The position numbers were made by a program, and so were the translations under genes. A DNA stretch of 48,660 nucleotides from a virus: IMG/VR virus record IMGVR_UViG_3300031539_000055, positions 1 to 48,660 of that record. The stretch is one strand, 5' to 3'. The notes below the pieces were generated by a model. The model was not told the origin of the DNA and did no database searches. It was given only the letters and a program-made list of their open reading frames with translations. Shown here one piece after another: positions 3,195 through 46,413 of this stretch. How positions within the stretch are numbered: position 1 is the first letter of the stretch; the number at the start of each line of letters is the position of its first letter.

Positions 3195-4274
3195 TTACCA
3201 ACCCTCCGCCTTCCGGTCGAGCAAGAACACCGGGGCATACGTACTGATACCGTGCTCGGGACTGTTGAGCCACAACGATGCCACCGGCTCTTCGAAGGGC
3301 AGGTTGCAGGCGTAGGCGAACTCGTTGTACCCGATTGTGCTACCGCCCACGATCAGCCCGTGCAGGAAGTAGCTTTGGTGGAAGTGTCCCATGACCAGCA
3401 CGTCCCACGGCTGCGCGGTCGCGGTGTCCCTACCACGCTTCCTGTGCGAGCCCAGCATGAGCGGGGTGAGGAAGCCTGAGATACCAGAGCCCCCGTGGAA
3501 CTGGTCCCCGTGCGTCAGGCAGTACCGCGTCCCGTAGACCGGGAAATGCAGGTCCGCCCCCGTGGCAACCTGCATCGTCACGCGCGCATCGTCCCGTAGT
3601 TCTCGGGCGACCAGCTGGTAGACCAGGCCATCGAAGCTGTCCCGCGCCTTGCCCTTGGCCCTCGGCTTCTTCGTCGTGCGCCCGTGGTTGCCCACCACCG
3701 CACCGACATGGATCTTCCCGAAGTAGTCGGCGAGCAGGCGGATCAGTGCGATGACCGGATCGAGCACGCCTATCACGCTCTCCGTCACATACTCCGTGTT
3801 CGTCTCCCGGAGTTCGTCGTGGATTTCGCCGCCGAGCAAGTCGCCGCCGAGCATGAGGTTGAAGCCATCGTACTCCACGCCGGTCAGGTAGTCGCGCGCC
3901 AGCTTGATCGCGCCATCGCCCGCCCGGTGGATGCGCTGCTCCGCGATCTTCGTATCGTAGCAGTTGACCCCGCCGATCTCCTCGGGCCGCACGCGCTCGC
4001 CCCAATGCACGTCGGTCAAGATCATGCTCGGGATGACCTTGTGGGCCCCACGCTTGCGCTTGGGCGGAACCAGCCACTTCGGGGGAGACAGGGCTGCGGC
4101 ATCCAGCGCCTCGAATACCCCCAGGCGCCGACGTACCTCCGTCAACTCCTCCTCGCGGGCATGGAGCGTGACGCGCAGCGTGCGGTTGTCTCTTGCGATC
4201 TCCTGGTTCTCCGAAAATCTGGCTTCACCCTGCTCCGCCACGAAGGCGTCCAGTGACTTCGCGTCTCCGTTCAT
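3195..4274 (-). CDS. Calcineurin-like metallophosphoesterase
   Basis: A 359-residue protein with the full metallophosphoesterase motif set: LTDVHWGE (Asp88, His90), GGDLLGG (Asp145), VVGNHGR (Asn196, His197), LTHGD (His255) and GHFHQ (His297, His299). These residues bind the two-metal centre in this superfamily of phosphomonoesterases, phosphodiesterases and nucleases. The N-terminal 60 residues look helical and are rich in Glu/Arg. The start at 4274 lies 2 nt after the stop of the preceding 81-residue gene, with GGGGAGG just upstream, so the two are probably translated together. The substrate is unknown; a DNA or RNA processing role is as plausible as a lysis-related one. Confidence 0.88.
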   Translation of the reverse strand: MNGDAKSLDAFVAEQGEARFSENQEIARDNRTLRVTLHAREEELTEVRRRLGVFEALDAAALSPPKWLVPPKRKRGAHKVIPSMILTDVHWGERVRPEEIGGVNCYDTKIAEQRIHRAGDGAIKLARDYLTGVEYDGFNLMLGGDLLGGEIHDELRETNTEYVTESVIGVLDPVIALIRLLADYFGKIHVGAVVGNHGRTTKKPRAKGKARDSFDGLVYQLVARELRDDARVTMQVATGADLHFPVYGTRYCLTHGDQFHGGSGISGFLTPLMLGSHRKRGRDTATAQPWDVLVMGHFHQSYFLHGLIVGGSTIGYNEFAYACNLPFEEPVASLWLNSPEHGISTYAPVFLLDRKAEGW

Positions 4275-40579: not shown

Positions 40580-43069
40580 TCAGATCCTCACGTGCGAGAA
40601 CCGGATCGTTGGCGCTGCGGGGCGGAGTACTCGGAACTCCTCCCAACAAAGATAATCGTTTGCATCCAGAATATGATCTAGTCCGCTCGCCTTGTCACGG
40701 ATGCTCGTGCCCTCCTTATACGTCAGCCCACCAAGCGCTCGGATCAGCGCCTTGGCCCGGGGATGGATGCGGATGCGCCGGCGTGTGCCCTGGCAGAGCA
40801 TCGCCTGCGTGTTGTTCACTCGGTCCACGACCAGTGGCGCCGCTTTAGGCGCTCGTACGTCAAAGCCCGCGCGCTGTAGGATGGTGAAGTCCGTCATCCC
40901 TACCGGGGAGCTACTGTGCCGGGCCCGCCCGCTCGGGTCAGGGCAGATCACGATCTTCCGGCCCGGGTAGCGCCGCCTCAGCTCGCCGGCTACCTCCTCC
41001 GTGTTCGATGTCTGGATCTCCAGCGCATCCAGGATGTGCAGCTCGTCGGCCACCTTCACCCCGATCACGCTGGCCATCGGGTTCACGTTGAAATCCTGCC
41101 CGACGAAGATCTCGGCGCCCGTGTCCACCACGCTCGCATCCACGTTACCGGCGGGGAACGGTGCCTTGCTGAAGCTGCTGTAGACCAGCCCCTCCACATC
41201 GTCCAGTAGCTCACCGTGGATCTCCTGCCGGCCCAGGCGCGTCCCCTCGTAGGCCGCCAGCGTCTGCGTGAACCACTCCGGCGCCAGGTTGGCCCGGTTC
41301 TCGTAGCTGCTGCCCGTCACCACTACGGTGGTCGGCTGCTCCTCGATCTCCGAAAGGATCGGCACGGGCCGGGGCGTCGTGCTGATGAATATACGCGGGC
41401 GATCAGCCGAGACCTCGCGCATCCCGAACTGGAGATTTTCCCAGACCTCCCGACAATTTTTGTACTTGGCATACTCATCCAGCCATGCCGTATCGCCTGA
41501 GAACCCACGCAGTCCGTCCGGCTCTTCCGAGCTGAAGACCGTCGCCCACGAGCCGTTCGGCCAGGTGATGCGCCGCTTCGAGGGCTCATACTTCGGCCAG
41601 GGACCGTTCGGGGCGTCCAGGCACCAGAGCGGCGGGTTGCGTAGCACGCCCGCAGGCCCCTCGATCATGTAGTCTCGGGCGTCGGCCGGGGTCTTCGCCA
41701 CAAAGGCCATCCACCGCCCTGGCTCCTGCTCTGCCCGCTCGTGTACCCAACCGGCCCCGGTCGCCGTATTGTGCGTCGGGACCATACCCAGACCAGCCAG
41801 ATAGAGGTGCGAGCGCGAATCCACGGCAAGGCACCGCACTGGCTCGCTAGGGACTGGATCCACCGCCACGATGTACCGATGCGTCGTCCTGTTCCGCTGC
41901 GCCGTCTCACACCGCACGCGCTCGGCCTTCCGCCGGAGTCGAAACACCTGAGTCCTTGGCGTCCATTTCACGCGCCACTTCGGCCCCACTATTCTACCAT
42001 AGATTGTGGCCACACCTTCCGCCTTCACCGGCTTGTGCCCGAGCGATACAGCCAACTCCACTACTGCATCCGCGAGCACTTCCTTCGTGGATGTAAACTC
42101 GACATTTCCCCCAGGGGCGATGAACCCGTCCGTATCCAGGAGGCCCGCCAACAGAGCCGCGCGCTGTTCGATCGAACCCCTGAGGTAGGCAGCAGGTACA
42201 TGCTTATTCTTGAGGACGCCAAGGGTACGTAGAGCGCTGTGAAGGGACCCATTCGCCATCATCGCCCCTGTCACCGCATCCCGCTTGGCTGGCTTTCCAC
42301 CCAACGGATAGGTCGCGCAGAACGCACCCGGTTTACGGCACGGCTTCCCACTTAAAGCCACTCCGGAGGCAGCCAACATGCCAAGAAGTTCATTGGCGTC
42401 CGTATCACCTACCGTGACCGCCCCTTTTGCGCTAGACCCGTCCCCGAGCCAGACGCCCAATACGTAGGGGTCCACTGGCAGCGGCGCGACGGGAAGATCG
42501 AGTGGCGCCGCTAGAGGGATACTGTGATTCCGCTCCCGGGCATTCGCCATCAGGGTGGAGCGGATCTCCTCCGTCGTACGAGTGCCCGGAGCAGAACGCG
42601 GGTGTACGGCGCGGCCCATGGCCTTCCTATACCGCTTGTCCCATGTCAGCCAACGGTGGTCGGCGTCTGCCACGACCTCCGAGCCGTCGTCAAACCGCAC
42701 CACATAGCAGGGGCGCCCGACCTGGACCTCCGTGGCGAACGTCACCCGGCATGGACGCCCGCCCTCGTCGAATAGTCGGTCGCCTACCCGAACCTCGCCC
42801 ATCGTGGTCCAGCCATCAGGGGTAGGCAGCGGGGTGTCAAGCGCTAGGGCTTTCCCGAATCCGCGACCCGTCCTCAAAACCCAAGTCAGCCAGTCGCCCG
42901 GAGGCGGTAGCTGCTTGGGCCGGGCCCAGAAGTGCCAGTCGTGCTCAACGACCCGAAGCTCTGTCCCCGTTAGTGTGCCCAGGAACGCTCGCCATTCCGA
43001 CTCCGGTAGGCTGGCCAGCAATTCGGCTTGCGATCCCGGAAATACGGTTGGTGATGCGGTTGCGGACAA
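40580..43069 (-). CDS. terL: Terminase large subunit interrupted by an intein
   Basis: An 829-residue precursor. The extein has the ATPase P-loop TGRGFGK (residues about 67-73) continuing as TATGAGW after the intein, a Walker B segment GDTAWLDEYAKYK, motif III ISTTPRP, and C-terminal nuclease residues FVGQDFNV (Asp), ICPDPSG and LDHILDANDYL. It drives DNA packaging and cuts the concatemer. Splicing of residues 74-434 restores GRGFGKT. The start is a TTG at 43069, 6 nt after GAGGAGG; a second TTG at 43075 abuts the same site, and no ATG is available before the intein. It overlaps the small subunit gene by 125 nt. Confidence 0.92.
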   Translation of the reverse strand: MSATASPTVFPGSQAELLASLPESEWRAFLGTLTGTELRVVEHDWHFWARPKQLPPPGDWLTWVLRTGRGFGKALALDTPLPTPDGWTTMGEVRVGDRLFDEGGRPCRVTFATEVQVGRPCYVVRFDDGSEVVADADHRWLTWDKRYRKAMGRAVHPRSAPGTRTTEEIRSTLMANARERNHSIPLAAPLDLPVAPLPVDPYVLGVWLGDGSSAKGAVTVGDTDANELLGMLAASGVALSGKPCRKPGAFCATYPLGGKPAKRDAVTGAMMANGSLHSALRTLGVLKNKHVPAAYLRGSIEQRAALLAGLLDTDGFIAPGGNVEFTSTKEVLADAVVELAVSLGHKPVKAEGVATIYGRIVGPKWRVKWTPRTQVFRLRRKAERVRCETAQRNRTTHRYIVAVDPVPSEPVRCLAVDSRSHLYLAGLGMVPTHNTATGAGWVHERAEQEPGRWMAFVAKTPADARDYMIEGPAGVLRNPPLWCLDAPNGPWPKYEPSKRRITWPNGSWATVFSSEEPDGLRGFSGDTAWLDEYAKYKNCREVWENLQFGMREVSADRPRIFISTTPRPVPILSEIEEQPTTVVVTGSSYENRANLAPEWFTQTLAAYEGTRLGRQEIHGELLDDVEGLVYSSFSKAPFPAGNVDASVVDTGAEIFVGQDFNVNPMASVIGVKVADELHILDALEIQTSNTEEVAGELRRRYPGRKIVICPDPSGRARHSSSPVGMTDFTILQRAGFDVRAPKAAPLVVDRVNNTQAMLCQGTRRRIRIHPRAKALIRALGGLTYKEGTSIRDKASGLDHILDANDYLCWEEFRVLRPAAPTIRFSHVRI
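41768..42850 (-). mobile_element. Class 3-like intein with LAGLIDADG endonuclease in the TerL P-loop
   Basis: A 361-residue intein. Residue 1 is Ala (ALALDTPLPTPDGW) instead of Cys/Ser. The C-terminal junction is VPTHN followed by Thr+1. Block B has DHRW (Trp140) and block F has VRCLAVDSRSHLYLAG (Cys413); with Thr432 in PTHN these match the Trp-Cys-Thr set of class 3 inteins, in which the block F Cys starts splicing. A two-motif LAGLIDADG nuclease is present: LGVWLGDGS (about 204-212) and LLAGLLDTDGF (about 306-316). The insertion is between Lys and Thr of the ATPase P-loop, so splicing is required for packaging. Confidence 0.88.
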
Positions 43070-43448
43070 CGACAACCTCCTCTACCTGGATGGGGCCACC
43101 GTCTGCACCTGTGATCTCATGTACGCTCGTCTCGCGCCAGCCGGCCTGCGTCTTCAGATAGAAGCACATCGCCCCAAGGTTGCCACTGCGCGCCGCCTGG
43201 AGTAGCGAGCCGGCTATGGTAGTGATCGCCTTTGCGCGTCCCTCTTTATACGCTAAGGAGATTCGTGGGTCCCTTCCCATAGCTGCGTGAAATGTCGGCA
43301 CGGTGATGCCGAAGTAATCCGCCACCTGGGTCTGGTTCAGTACAGCCGCCAACGTGGCGATCTCCTGGATCTGCTTATCCGTGGGCGCCCAGGGCTTCGG
43401 ACCCCGCTTTGCCCCGTTCCCCTTCTTGCCGTTTGACCCGTTAGCCAT
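42945..43448 (-). CDS. terS: Terminase small subunit
   Basis: A 167-residue protein. A basic start (GKKGNGAKRGPKPWAP) is followed by a helix-turn-helix (DKQIQEIATLAAVLNQTQVADYFGITVPTFHAAMGRDP), a helix block (YKEGRAKAITTIAGSLLQAARSGNLGAMCFYLKTQAGWRET) and a C-terminal tail. This matches terminase small subunits that recognise the packaging site. It overlaps the upstream ParB-methyltransferase gene by 8 nt and the large subunit downstream. Confidence 0.85.
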   Translation of the reverse strand: MANGSNGKKGNGAKRGPKPWAPTDKQIQEIATLAAVLNQTQVADYFGITVPTFHAAMGRDPRISLAYKEGRAKAITTIAGSLLQAARSGNLGAMCFYLKTQAGWRETSVHEITGADGGPIQVEEVVVVRNRITNRISGIASRIAGQPTGVGMASVPGHTNGDRASGR

Positions 43449-44676
43449 GCTTCACCTTCCTCGGCTCCAGCCCCATTGCCGCCATCCGCTCAAGAATAAC
43501 GGCGCAATAGCCCTCGCTTATCTCAATGCCGTAGCAGACGCGGCGCTCGTTCTCGGTTGCGACCATCGTGGTGCCCGAGCCGAGGAATGGATCAAACACG
43601 ACTGCGCCGACCGAGGCGATTCGGCGGGTAATATCGGCCACTACAGAGAGCGGCTTGACGGAACCGTGCCACCCTGCATCTGCCCCCAGCTCACCAGATA
43701 CTTCCGGGAGGTAGTAGCAGTCATGAACGTAGGGGTGCGCGTCCTGCCACGCGCCGTTGCCAACCTCAGATACCAGGATGGATTCTGAAGTCAGAATCCA
43801 TCCTCGCCACGGGAACGTGCATTGCGCTGCCTTGTAGAGCCACAACATCCGGTGGAACTGATGCCCCGCCGCCCTTATCGCATCTAGCCAGACGGGGAAC
43901 GTCCGCGTGCCCTGAAAGGCCACGACAATGGCGTTTTCCACTGGCAGGTTTGCAACGGCACCGCGCACTGTCCCATCCAGCAACTCAGGGGCGTCGTTTA
44001 TGACTCCGGGCTGGCTGATTCCGTAGGGCGGATCGGTAAGCACGGCTTCCGCACTCTCGCCCCCCATCAGCCGCCCCACGTCCCCCGCGCTCGTCGAGTC
44101 CCCGCACATGACCCGATGTGACTTGCCCGGCACCGCCTTGCTCGGGATCTCCCACACCTGGCCGCGCTCGGTGCCCCACTTCTTCTGAAGCTCGGCGGCA
44201 CGATCTACCTGTGCGCCGGGGTCCTCGGGCTTGTCCATCTCGCGGCCGAGGTCGGCAAGCAGCTCATCCAGCGCGTCCGCGTCATAGCCCGTGCCTTCAA
44301 GCGAGCCCGCATCGGCCAGGATCTCTTGCAGCAACGCCACCAGTTGCTCGGGATCGTCTATGCCGAGCCGGGTGGTGCGGTTGTCAGCCAGGAGGATGCG
44401 GAGCGCCGTCGCGTCGTCCACGTCCACCCAAGCCACCGGCACGTCCTTGGCGCCCATCTGCTGCGCTACCATGAGGCGATGATTTCCCACCAGCACGCGT
44501 CCGGTAGACCGCTGTGCCACGATGGTCCCGTAGAAGCCGTTGACCGCTACGCTCTCATGGATCGCCCCGAGGTCGCCCTGGTTCACGTTGCGCGGGTGGA
44601 GCGTCAGGTCCGCGACCGGCACAAGTTCCACGGCCTCATTGAGTACCCGCATTCCGTTCGCCTTGGGCTTCGCCAT
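43441..44676 (-). CDS. ParB-domain - DNA methyltransferase fusion (adenine/N4-cytosine type)
   Basis: A 411-residue protein. The ParB/Srx-like N-domain (LTLHPRNVNQGDLGAIHESV...GRVLVGNHRLMVAQQMG, residues about 20-75) precedes the methyltransferase. Motif IV is TDPPYGI (DPPY 215-218) and motif I FDPFLGSGTT lies near the C-terminus (about 361-370), an order typical of beta-class N6-adenine or N4-cytosine methyltransferases. It probably protects phage DNA from host restriction. No restriction endonuclease gene is adjacent. Start at 44676 has no strong ribosome site. Confidence 0.88.
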   Translation of the reverse strand: MAKPKANGMRVLNEAVELVPVADLTLHPRNVNQGDLGAIHESVAVNGFYGTIVAQRSTGRVLVGNHRLMVAQQMGAKDVPVAWVDVDDATALRILLADNRTTRLGIDDPEQLVALLQEILADAGSLEGTGYDADALDELLADLGREMDKPEDPGAQVDRAAELQKKWGTERGQVWEIPSKAVPGKSHRVMCGDSTSAGDVGRLMGGESAEAVLTDPPYGISQPGVINDAPELLDGTVRGAVANLPVENAIVVAFQGTRTFPVWLDAIRAAGHQFHRMLWLYKAAQCTFPWRGWILTSESILVSEVGNGAWQDAHPYVHDCYYLPEVSGELGADAGWHGSVKPLSVVADITRRIASVGAVVFDPFLGSGTTMVATENERRVCYGIEISEGYCAVILERMAAMGLEPRKVKHG

Positions 44677-44688
44677 GATGAAGTCAAG

Positions 44689-46413
44689 CTAACCCGTTTG
44701 GGCTGCTGGCGTTAGGGTCATGTCGGATAGTTCAGCTTCAGCGACCATGATTCTGTAGGCGATCCAGTTCACGACCGATACCGTAACTGCATTCCCACAG
44801 AACCTGTACCTCGGCCCGTCAGCCATGTCGCAGCGGGTGCCGTCCTCGCGGGTGCCGTAGGCGGTCCAGCCTGGCGGAAAACTTTGGAGTGCCTCGCACT
44901 CGCCGGGGGTCAATCGGCGAGGGATGGCCCCCTCCATGACCTTCGGCTGGTGGTGTCCTCCGTGGGTGTTGCTCGAATGCGCCAGCGTCGGCACGGCTGC
45001 ACCAGGGGGCACGATTTGATCCTGTTGGGCGCCCCCCTGAAACGCCACCACACACGGCGGTTGTCCCATCTCGAAGCCCGTGCCCAACTTGAGGGTGGGC
45101 GATAGATCATCCATAACCAGCGGGGAGGAGTCCTGTGTCACCACAATCGGCGTCCCCCGTCCCGTCCCGTCCTCGCTGGCGTCGAAGCCTTCGGCACGGA
45201 GGGTGTGGGCGAGGACCGCACCGCAGCCCATACCGGCCCGCCCCCCGCTCGGCGTAAGGATGGCGTTGGCTAGACCGTCGGTGCCTAGTTCCGCCTGCGG
45301 TGTCCCGTCGCGCCCACGGATCGCTAGGCTCTGGGCGACTAGCTGGTTCGTGCCGTTGTCGTCGCTCACGGCAAGGGGGCCTAGTCCCTCTCGGTAGAAG
45401 CCGTCGCCCGTTGCTTGAGCGCCGACGCCAGCGCCTCCGGCAGTTCCTTCCTCCGCTTCTCGGCTCGGCGCAGGATGCCCATACAAGCCTTCGGAGAGAG
45501 CAAGTATTTCGGCGGCACGTTCGCCTCTAAAATCTGCGACAATGAACACGCGGCGCCGTCTCTGGGCCACGCCGAAGAATTGGCTGTCCAGGACTCGCCA
45601 CGCGATGTCCAACGCCCCGACGTTTGCCAGTTCAGCGAGAACGACAGCAAAATCGTTTCCGCCGTTTGACGAGAGCAGTCCCGGGACGTTCTCGAAAAGA
45701 GCGAAGGTTGGACCGACTCCGGCATCTTGAAGCTCCTTGATGATCCGCATGGCCTCAAAGAACAGCGACGACCGCTTGCCCTCAATCAGTCCAGCCCGAC
45801 GACCGGCCACCGACAGGTCTTGGCAGGGCCAGCCGCCGCAGATCACATCGACCGGCTCGACAAGTAGCGTTGCGCCGCATCCACAAAGGCGGCGTCCTCG
45901 ATGATCGGAAGGTGGATGTTGCACCCGTGGCAGAGCAGCCCCCTCACCTCCCCCGTCACGTGGCAGTGATCCACCACCCACCGCCTCGGCACCTTCCCGC
46001 AGATCGCACAGACCCCGCTTTGCCGTTCCTTCATCTCGGCAACCTGCTGCGGAGTCAGCCCGTACCTCCCGGCCAACTGCCACTTGTGGCGCTGTTCCGG
46101 CGTCCCGGCCTTCCTCGTCCCCGCAACCCGGTTCGCGTGGTCGTATGCCAACTGGCACTTCTTGCACCACGCTTGGAGCCCGTCCCCCATGTCCGACTTC
46201 CGGTAGAACTCGCTTCGCGGTTTTGTCTCCGCACACCTCGCACACCGCTTTGACATCATGCACGTCCTCCCAGTGGGGAACATCCGGCCAATGCCTCCTC
46301 AGCACCGCCCGGCATTGCGGGTCCAACTCCACGCTCCACGCTGGCGTTAGCCCGGCACGTTCTAGGGCTAGGTCGAAGCCACCAACGCCGGCGAACAGGG
46401 AGCCGAACCGCAT
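44689..46413 (-). CDS. C5-cytosine DNA methyltransferase (Dcm-like) with a large insertion
   Basis: A 574-residue protein starting MRFGSLFAGVGGFDLALERA (motif I). Motif IV CGGWPCQDLS places the catalytic Cys at 197, motif VI is FENVPGLL, motif VIII AQRRRRVFIVA, and the C-terminus has RRLTPGECEALQSFPPGW and FCGNAVT. In typical relatives the catalytic Cys lies near residue 75-80. Here about 120-130 extra residues (about 54-186), rich in Gly/Arg/Glu, separate motif I and IV. That segment is the overlapping frame of an endonuclease VII-like gene. The long region 345-480 may be target recognition. The start at 46413 lies 1 nt after the stop of the preceding gene. Activity with the insertion is uncertain. 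Confidence 0.88.
   Translation of the reverse strand: MRFGSLFAGVGGFDLALERAGLTPAWSVELDPQCRAVLRRHWPDVPHWEDVHDVKAVCEVCGDKTAKRVLPEVGHGGRAPSVVQEVPVGIRPREPGCGDEEGRDAGTAPQVAVGREVRADSAAGCRDEGTAKRGLCDLREGAEAVGGGSLPRDGGGEGAALPRVQHPPSDHRGRRLCGCGATLLVEPVDVICGGWPCQDLSVAGRRAGLIEGKRSSLFFEAMRIIKELQDAGVGPTFALFENVPGLLSSNGGNDFAVVLAELANVGALDIAWRVLDSQFFGVAQRRRRVFIVADFRGERAAEILALSEGLYGHPAPSREAEEGTAGGAGVGAQATGDGFYREGLGPLAVSDDNGTNQLVAQSLAIRGRDGTPQAELGTDGLANAILTPSGGRAGMGCGAVLAHTLRAEGFDASEDGTGRGTPIVVTQDSSPLVMDDLSPTLKLGTGFEMGQPPCVVAFQGGAQQDQIVPPGAAVPTLAHSSNTHGGHHQPKVMEGAIPRRLTPGECEALQSFPPGWTAYGTREDGTRCDMADGPRYRFCGNAVTVSVVNWIAYRIMVAEAELSDMTLTPAAQTG
45843..46259 (-). CDS. Endonuclease VII-type HNH nuclease nested in the methyltransferase gene
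   Basis: A 138-residue protein starting MMSKRCARCAETKPRSEFYR, in the +1 frame relative to the methyltransferase. CARC and CKKC form a zinc site. The core CAICGKVPRRWVVDHCHVTGEVRGLLCHGCNIHLPIIED is the recombination endonuclease VII pattern (DHCH, RGLLC..CN). GGAGG before the ATG gives it its own ribosome site. The stop TGA lies within the methyltransferase VDVICGG region. This is a homing-type insertion that leaves the outer frame open. Confidence 0.88.
   Translation of the reverse strand: MMSKRCARCAETKPRSEFYRKSDMGDGLQAWCKKCQLAYDHANRVAGTRKAGTPEQRHKWQLAGRYGLTPQQVAEMKERQSGVCAICGKVPRRWVVDHCHVTGEVRGLLCHGCNIHLPIIEDAAFVDAAQRYLSSRSM

Follow-up and report, generated by a model that had tools for sequence, protein, structure and literature searches.

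How can a nuclease gene lie inside a DNA methyltransferase gene whose own reading frame stays open from end to end? The question is raised by a locus in a tailed-phage genome (IMG/VR record IMGVR_UViG_3300031539_000055, positions 1 to 48,660; this whole analysed stretch of 48,660 nucleotides is called the window), in which terminase, portal, head and tail genes were identified. The two frames involved are as follows.

44689–46413, minus strand: cytosine-C5 DNA methyltransferase (MTase) frame, 574 aa (PF00145, E=1.1e-48; dcm TIGR00675, E=4.8e-46)
45843–46259, minus strand: Endonuclease VII-type HNH ORF, 138 aa, in the +1 frame relative to the MTase (PF02945 Endonuclease_7, E=3.4e-16)

The MTase frame is Dcm-like and open for 574 codons from 46413 to 44692, with its stop at 44691–44689, and it carries the motifs FAGVGG, PCQ (Cys197), ENV and QRRRR. 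The first-pass annotation of this DNA had described an HNH ORF in the +1 frame between MTase motifs I and IV, crossed by the MTase frame without a stop, and both statements held; the ORF lies between motifs III and IV. Two other genes of the window were noted in passing. The gene downstream of the MTase (43441–44676, minus strand) encodes a protein in which a ParB-like domain is joined to an N4/N6 DNA methyltransferase, and the terminase large subunit (40580–43075, minus strand, 831 aa) is probably interrupted within Walker A by an intein, at about residues 76–436 (GFGK, then ALALDTPLPTPDGW...VPTHN, then TATGAGW), which contains a LAGLIDADG_3 domain (303–348) and appears to begin with Ala, the usual residue being Cys or Ser.

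The nested ORF also matches PHROG 2633, 'endonuclease VII' (E=8e-36), and keeps all the catalytic and zinc residues that are invariant across 36 relatives (C6, C9, C32, C35, C84, C87, D97, H98, R106, C110, C113 and N114). These include residues of the Endonuclease VII motif (F-CphI / DHHRN), found here as D97, H98, H100, R106 and N114 with zinc ligands C84, C87, C110 and C113. The motif occupies residues 64–133 of 138 and is thus at the C-terminal end, a position that serves as a criterion for homing or restriction endonucleases rather than the resolvase clade (PMC6083498). Although a longer ORF of 146 aa is possible from an ATG at 46283, we favour a start at 46259/46256 because the relatives begin M-(x)-K-x-C, which gives the N-terminus usual for the family. 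The predicted structure has a pLDDT of 90, and, judged from its sequence, the nuclease is complete with its catalytic residues intact. Foldseek searches with this model returned weak matches only, led by Hpy99I and T4 EndoVII; Hpy99I is also the closest solved structure by sequence, being the PDB entry that the family profile matches best (E=8.7e-17). Free-standing relatives of the nuclease are scattered among phages. In Synechococcus phage 7B11-B (L090, 1368–3361), three genes called 'recombination endonuclease VII' and a single HNH gene lie within 2 kb, in a cluster that surrounds a small terminase gene.

The phage contig of a close relative, L007 (IMGVR_UViG_3300044698_000123), carries the same MTase without the insert, and near the site the two are about 90% identical in nucleotide sequence. 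Comparison with it, the route that the first-pass annotation had proposed to the edges of the insert, divides the gene as follows.

46246–46413, minus strand: 5′ part of the MTase, residues 1–56, motifs I–III (86% amino acid identity to L007)
45862–46245, minus strand: inserted DNA, MTase-frame residues 57–184, defined against the empty allele L007 (edges ± about 15 nt)
44692–45861, minus strand: 3′ part of the MTase, residues 185–574, comprising motif IV onwards, the target-recognition region and motifs IX–X

The L007 protein reads DVHDVGAHNLAPVDLICGGWPCQ, and that of the window reads DVHDVKA, 128 further residues and VEPVDVICGGWPCQ. Relative to L007 the net insertion is +378 nt, or 126 codons, which bears out the claim that the inserted length is divisible by three. 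The catalytic Cys does lie at residue 197, as claimed; its counterpart in L007 is residue 71, so that the excess is 126 residues and not about 130. MTase loci were located by BLAST coordinates, and the insert edges were taken from BLAST and the raw sequences, since a MAFFT alignment of the DNA misplaced the short L007 exon. The 3′ part of the MTase has tblastn matches in 80 viral loci, and its residues 185–336 are 89% identical to L007. When 8.8 kb of L007 were compared with the window by blastn, similarity was confined to the MTase gene. Within it, identity was about 0.9 across the 81 nt that precede the site and the 405 nt that follow it; beyond this block it was about 0.7 upstream and, downstream, 0.67 for one bin and then about 0.3. 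This profile fits a block exchange around the site and does not in itself prove co-conversion.

Because this empty homologue exists, the comparison establishes that the nuclease gene was inserted within the MTase gene, and the insert holds essentially the nuclease coding region only. More distant empty sites were seen in L009, L017, L044, L181 and L195. A second IMG/VR record, IMGVR_UViG_3300031566_000026 (L002/L006), has the same arrangement and is nearly identical, with one mismatch in 7,969 nt. The first-pass annotation had proposed to look for the insert in related phages. Apart from this record, searches of viral contigs with the HNH, the MTase and the site pattern, and of genome contigs, yielded no occupied allele, which leaves one occupied species beside empty relatives that include L007, L181 and L195. 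Nor did we find a homologue with the same loop and no HNH frame, which the first-pass annotation had named as a refuting case. Two distant phage MTases, L010 and L039, have other inserts of in-frame length at the same motif III–IV site (at about 3760–4001 and 3800–3990, respectively), and these differ in content, consisting of out-of-frame DNA that resembles the C-terminal part of other MTases; the L039 insert shares 78% nucleotide identity with L034 over 113 nt.

The true coding frame of the insert is, on both composition and modelling, that of the nuclease, with the MTase-frame loop a by-product. Its GC content at the three codon positions is 0.58/0.50/0.85 when read as HNH, which is the pattern of other genes in the genome, and 0.85/0.61/0.48 when read as MTase. 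This composition, the protein family matches, the invariant residues and a pLDDT of 90 against about 30 for the loop lead us to read the insert as a nuclease gene. The loop, described as Gly/Arg-rich in the first-pass annotation, is of low complexity and predicted to be disordered. In the MTase model the first 50 residues reach a pLDDT of about 95, and the conserved segments after the insert are mostly modelled well, the variable target-recognition stretch excepted.

The signals from which the nuclease might be translated lie at the two borders of the insert.

46265–46271, minus strand: GGGAGGA, resembling a Shine-Dalgarno site, 6 nt ahead of the HNH start, in MTase codons Trp-Glu-Asp
45843–45846, minus strand: GTGA, in which the HNH stop TGA overlaps an MTase-frame GTG (Val190)

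The GGAGG at 46270–46266, 6 nt upstream of the ATG at 46259, had been described as the nuclease's own ribosome site. It is present at that distance, but GGAGG, ATG and TGA all belong to MTase codons and not to the inserted DNA: the upstream signals and the ATGATG start region span Trp-Glu-Asp-Val-His-Asp-Val, and the TGA falls in Val-Ile. At the Shine-Dalgarno position the empty allele L007 has CGAGGA. L007 reads CGAGGACGTGC-ATGATGTCGGAGCGCACAACCTCGCGCCCGTGGACCTGA, which amounts to a 12-codon mini-ORF (ATGATGTCG...CCTGA) in the +1 frame with a weaker Shine-Dalgarno, all of it in MTase sense codons. The nuclease thus seems to have been dropped into start and stop signals supplied by host codons, and the GTGA overlap might permit reinitiation of the MTase frame.

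Taken together, these data make it likely that a homing-type nuclease was inserted without an intron or intein, and that the nuclease is translated internally while the MTase is read through with a loop. Under this scheme a compact nuclease gene of the Endonuclease VII / F-CphI type would have entered a conserved site of a phage cytosine-C5 MTase gene. It would be translated from the internal GGAGG-ATG, and its product would cut the empty MTase alleles of coinfecting phages, whose repair would copy the element in. The MTase would be translated straight through as 574 aa, and its extra 126 residues would form a loop, disordered and placed between motif III and motif IV. If this place tolerates inserts, the host gene would not be destroyed and splicing would not be needed; the inserts of in-frame length at the same site in L039 and L010 make a read-through MTase with a tolerated loop more plausible. 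We infer homing because the EndoVII family includes homing enzymes, an empty allele exists and free-standing relatives are scattered among phages; among proteins with the Endonuclease VII motif at the C-terminus there are both proven homing enzymes and intron-encoded ones (PMC6083498). With one occupied species found, the element's own mobility stays at the level of inference, and selection in the two frames is not measurable. A more specific version, in which a bare nuclease homed into the cryptic mini-ORF, is expressed via host codons while the MTase is read through, and is under selection in both frames, is possible and put forward tentatively. If true, it would let a nuclease gene persist with almost no harm to its host gene and without an intron.

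As a kind, the arrangement, which the first-pass annotation had set against homing nucleases lying beside genes or within introns or inteins, has already been published as the ShiLan domain (PMC11855218). In the ShiLan domain a phage methylase conceals an HNH in another frame, the host frame is open and splicing signals are absent; examples are mycobacteriophage ShiLan gp65 and, second, Pacc40 gp60, and its distribution among related methylases is disjunct (PMC9957025, PMC11855218). The window case is of the same kind (published 2023–2025): in both, an HNH lies out of frame in a phage methylase with a stop-free host frame, no intron or intein is detected and the loop is predicted away from the enzyme core. 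The families of nuclease and of MTase are different, as are the insertion site, the frame and the translation signals. ShiLan gp65 is a PF01555 methylase whose HNH has 195 aa in frame +2, whereas the window has a PF00145 MTase and a PF02945 EndoVII-type HNH of 138 aa in frame +1; the ShiLan HNH has a GTG start inside the insert with no ribosome site found, whereas in the window the ribosome site, ATG and TGA are in host codons. BLASTP of the ShiLan HNH against that of the window gave no similarity, and the two elements do not appear to be homologous.

In cluster J mycobacteriophages (Schatzie, MK524521, and relatives) an HNH ORF also lies in a PF00145 MTase with an open host frame. Unlike the window element, it is of the HNH_3 family, lies after motif VIII and is in another relative frame, and the Schatzie MTase is, in addition, broken further on by a frameshift, which the window MTase lacks. 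At the Schatzie locus (L003, 1980–3864) the HNH_3 ORF has 205 aa, and 9 phage records carry this HNH at 99% identity or higher. The F-CphI / DHHRN homing endonucleases resemble the window nuclease in being phage-borne with a C-terminal Endonuclease VII motif (PMC6083498), but the window case is without an intron. There is also a split-gene precedent, and here the host frame is by comparison continuous. MobE in nrdA of phage Aeh1 is an example of 'genes in pieces', a homing-type nuclease in a coding gene without an intron, in which the host gene is divided between two polypeptides and its function is reportedly retained.

The openness of the MTase frame could have a simpler origin: an insertion that merely disrupted the gene, in GC-rich DNA where a second frame is open by chance, leaving an MTase that is non-functional or made as a C-terminal fragment through reinitiation at GTGA. 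Of synonymous HNH recodings that followed the genome's codon usage, 4.2% had an MTase frame free of stops, and of the 133-codon stretches in real genes of the window 13.5% were likewise open in that relative frame; either value is to be multiplied by one third for the chance that an insert's length is divisible by three. The MTase-equivalent frame was open in none of 86 EndoVII relatives, and among those with GC of at least 0.60 the other frame was open in 4 of 13. In the scanned relatives none was nested in an open frame reaching far into a host gene, and a few GC-rich ones had a chance-open frame ending near the ORF. The open frame alone is therefore suggestive at most, not far beyond chance in a GC-rich genome. 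The parallel cases lean in the same direction, with corresponding probabilities of about 1.5% (Schatzie) and 4% (ShiLan), and these values must not simply be multiplied, because ShiLan and the window were both noticed for their open frames. The loop also sits in the AdoMet-binding half of the enzyme, an MTase carrying it may be inactive, and the two occupied records are nearly identical, so that decay is perhaps too recent to show; the window MTase could have been inactivated recently. Against simple disruption, the catalytic motifs and conserved columns are kept (8 of 92 family-conserved columns are altered, against 7–13 in insert-free relatives), the frame has neither stop nor frameshift, ShiLan and Schatzie are parallel cases with open frames, and inserts at this site are tolerated in other MTases. 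We regard disruption as unlikely.

It is less probable still that the HNH is a Hpy99I-type restriction enzyme encoded within its cognate MTase. Its similarity to Hpy99I fits such a pair, and Hpy99I-like genes of Helicobacter adjoin a methylase (PMC6083498); yet the close MTase relative L007 has no nuclease, the inspected nuclease relatives adjoin terminase, RNA polymerase or internal virion genes with no neighbouring MTase, free-standing phage members are usually regarded as homing enzymes, and no PADLOC restriction model matches the nuclease. Least probable of all, and by our estimate very improbable, is that an undetected intron or intein-like element removes the insert by splicing, even though the Schatzie depositors assumed an intron in their comparable case ('unable to determine intron boundaries') and cluster J phages carry unusual group I introns (PMC3706429). 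A group I intron found no support: an Rfam covariance search near the insert gave no match near threshold even at a relaxed setting, and RNA folding of the insert was no better than that of shuffles (z=-0.76). Nor did an intein: no splicing-domain profile was found in the MTase frame, where Pfam and NCBIfam give only the MTase. The HNH coding region, moreover, fills the whole insert and leaves no room for a separate ribozyme core, and the MTase frame is open throughout. The view that the MTase holds neither intron nor intein, already taken by the first-pass annotation, is supported by these searches.

With an intron-less homing-type insertion and a read-through MTase as the preferred reading, the window offers an independent and unrelated occurrence of the recently described 'hidden HNH' arrangement, in methylase and HNH families other than the published ones. 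It and Schatzie together suggest convergence, in which nucleases of different families enter phage MTases with no intron and the host frame remains open. Unlike ShiLan, the window case has an evident start of translation, and on paper this explains how the nuclease of such a locus could be produced; the occupied window and the roughly 90% identical empty L007 form a testable pair. In annotations, loci of this sort may appear as introns, as split genes or as single, unusual MTases.
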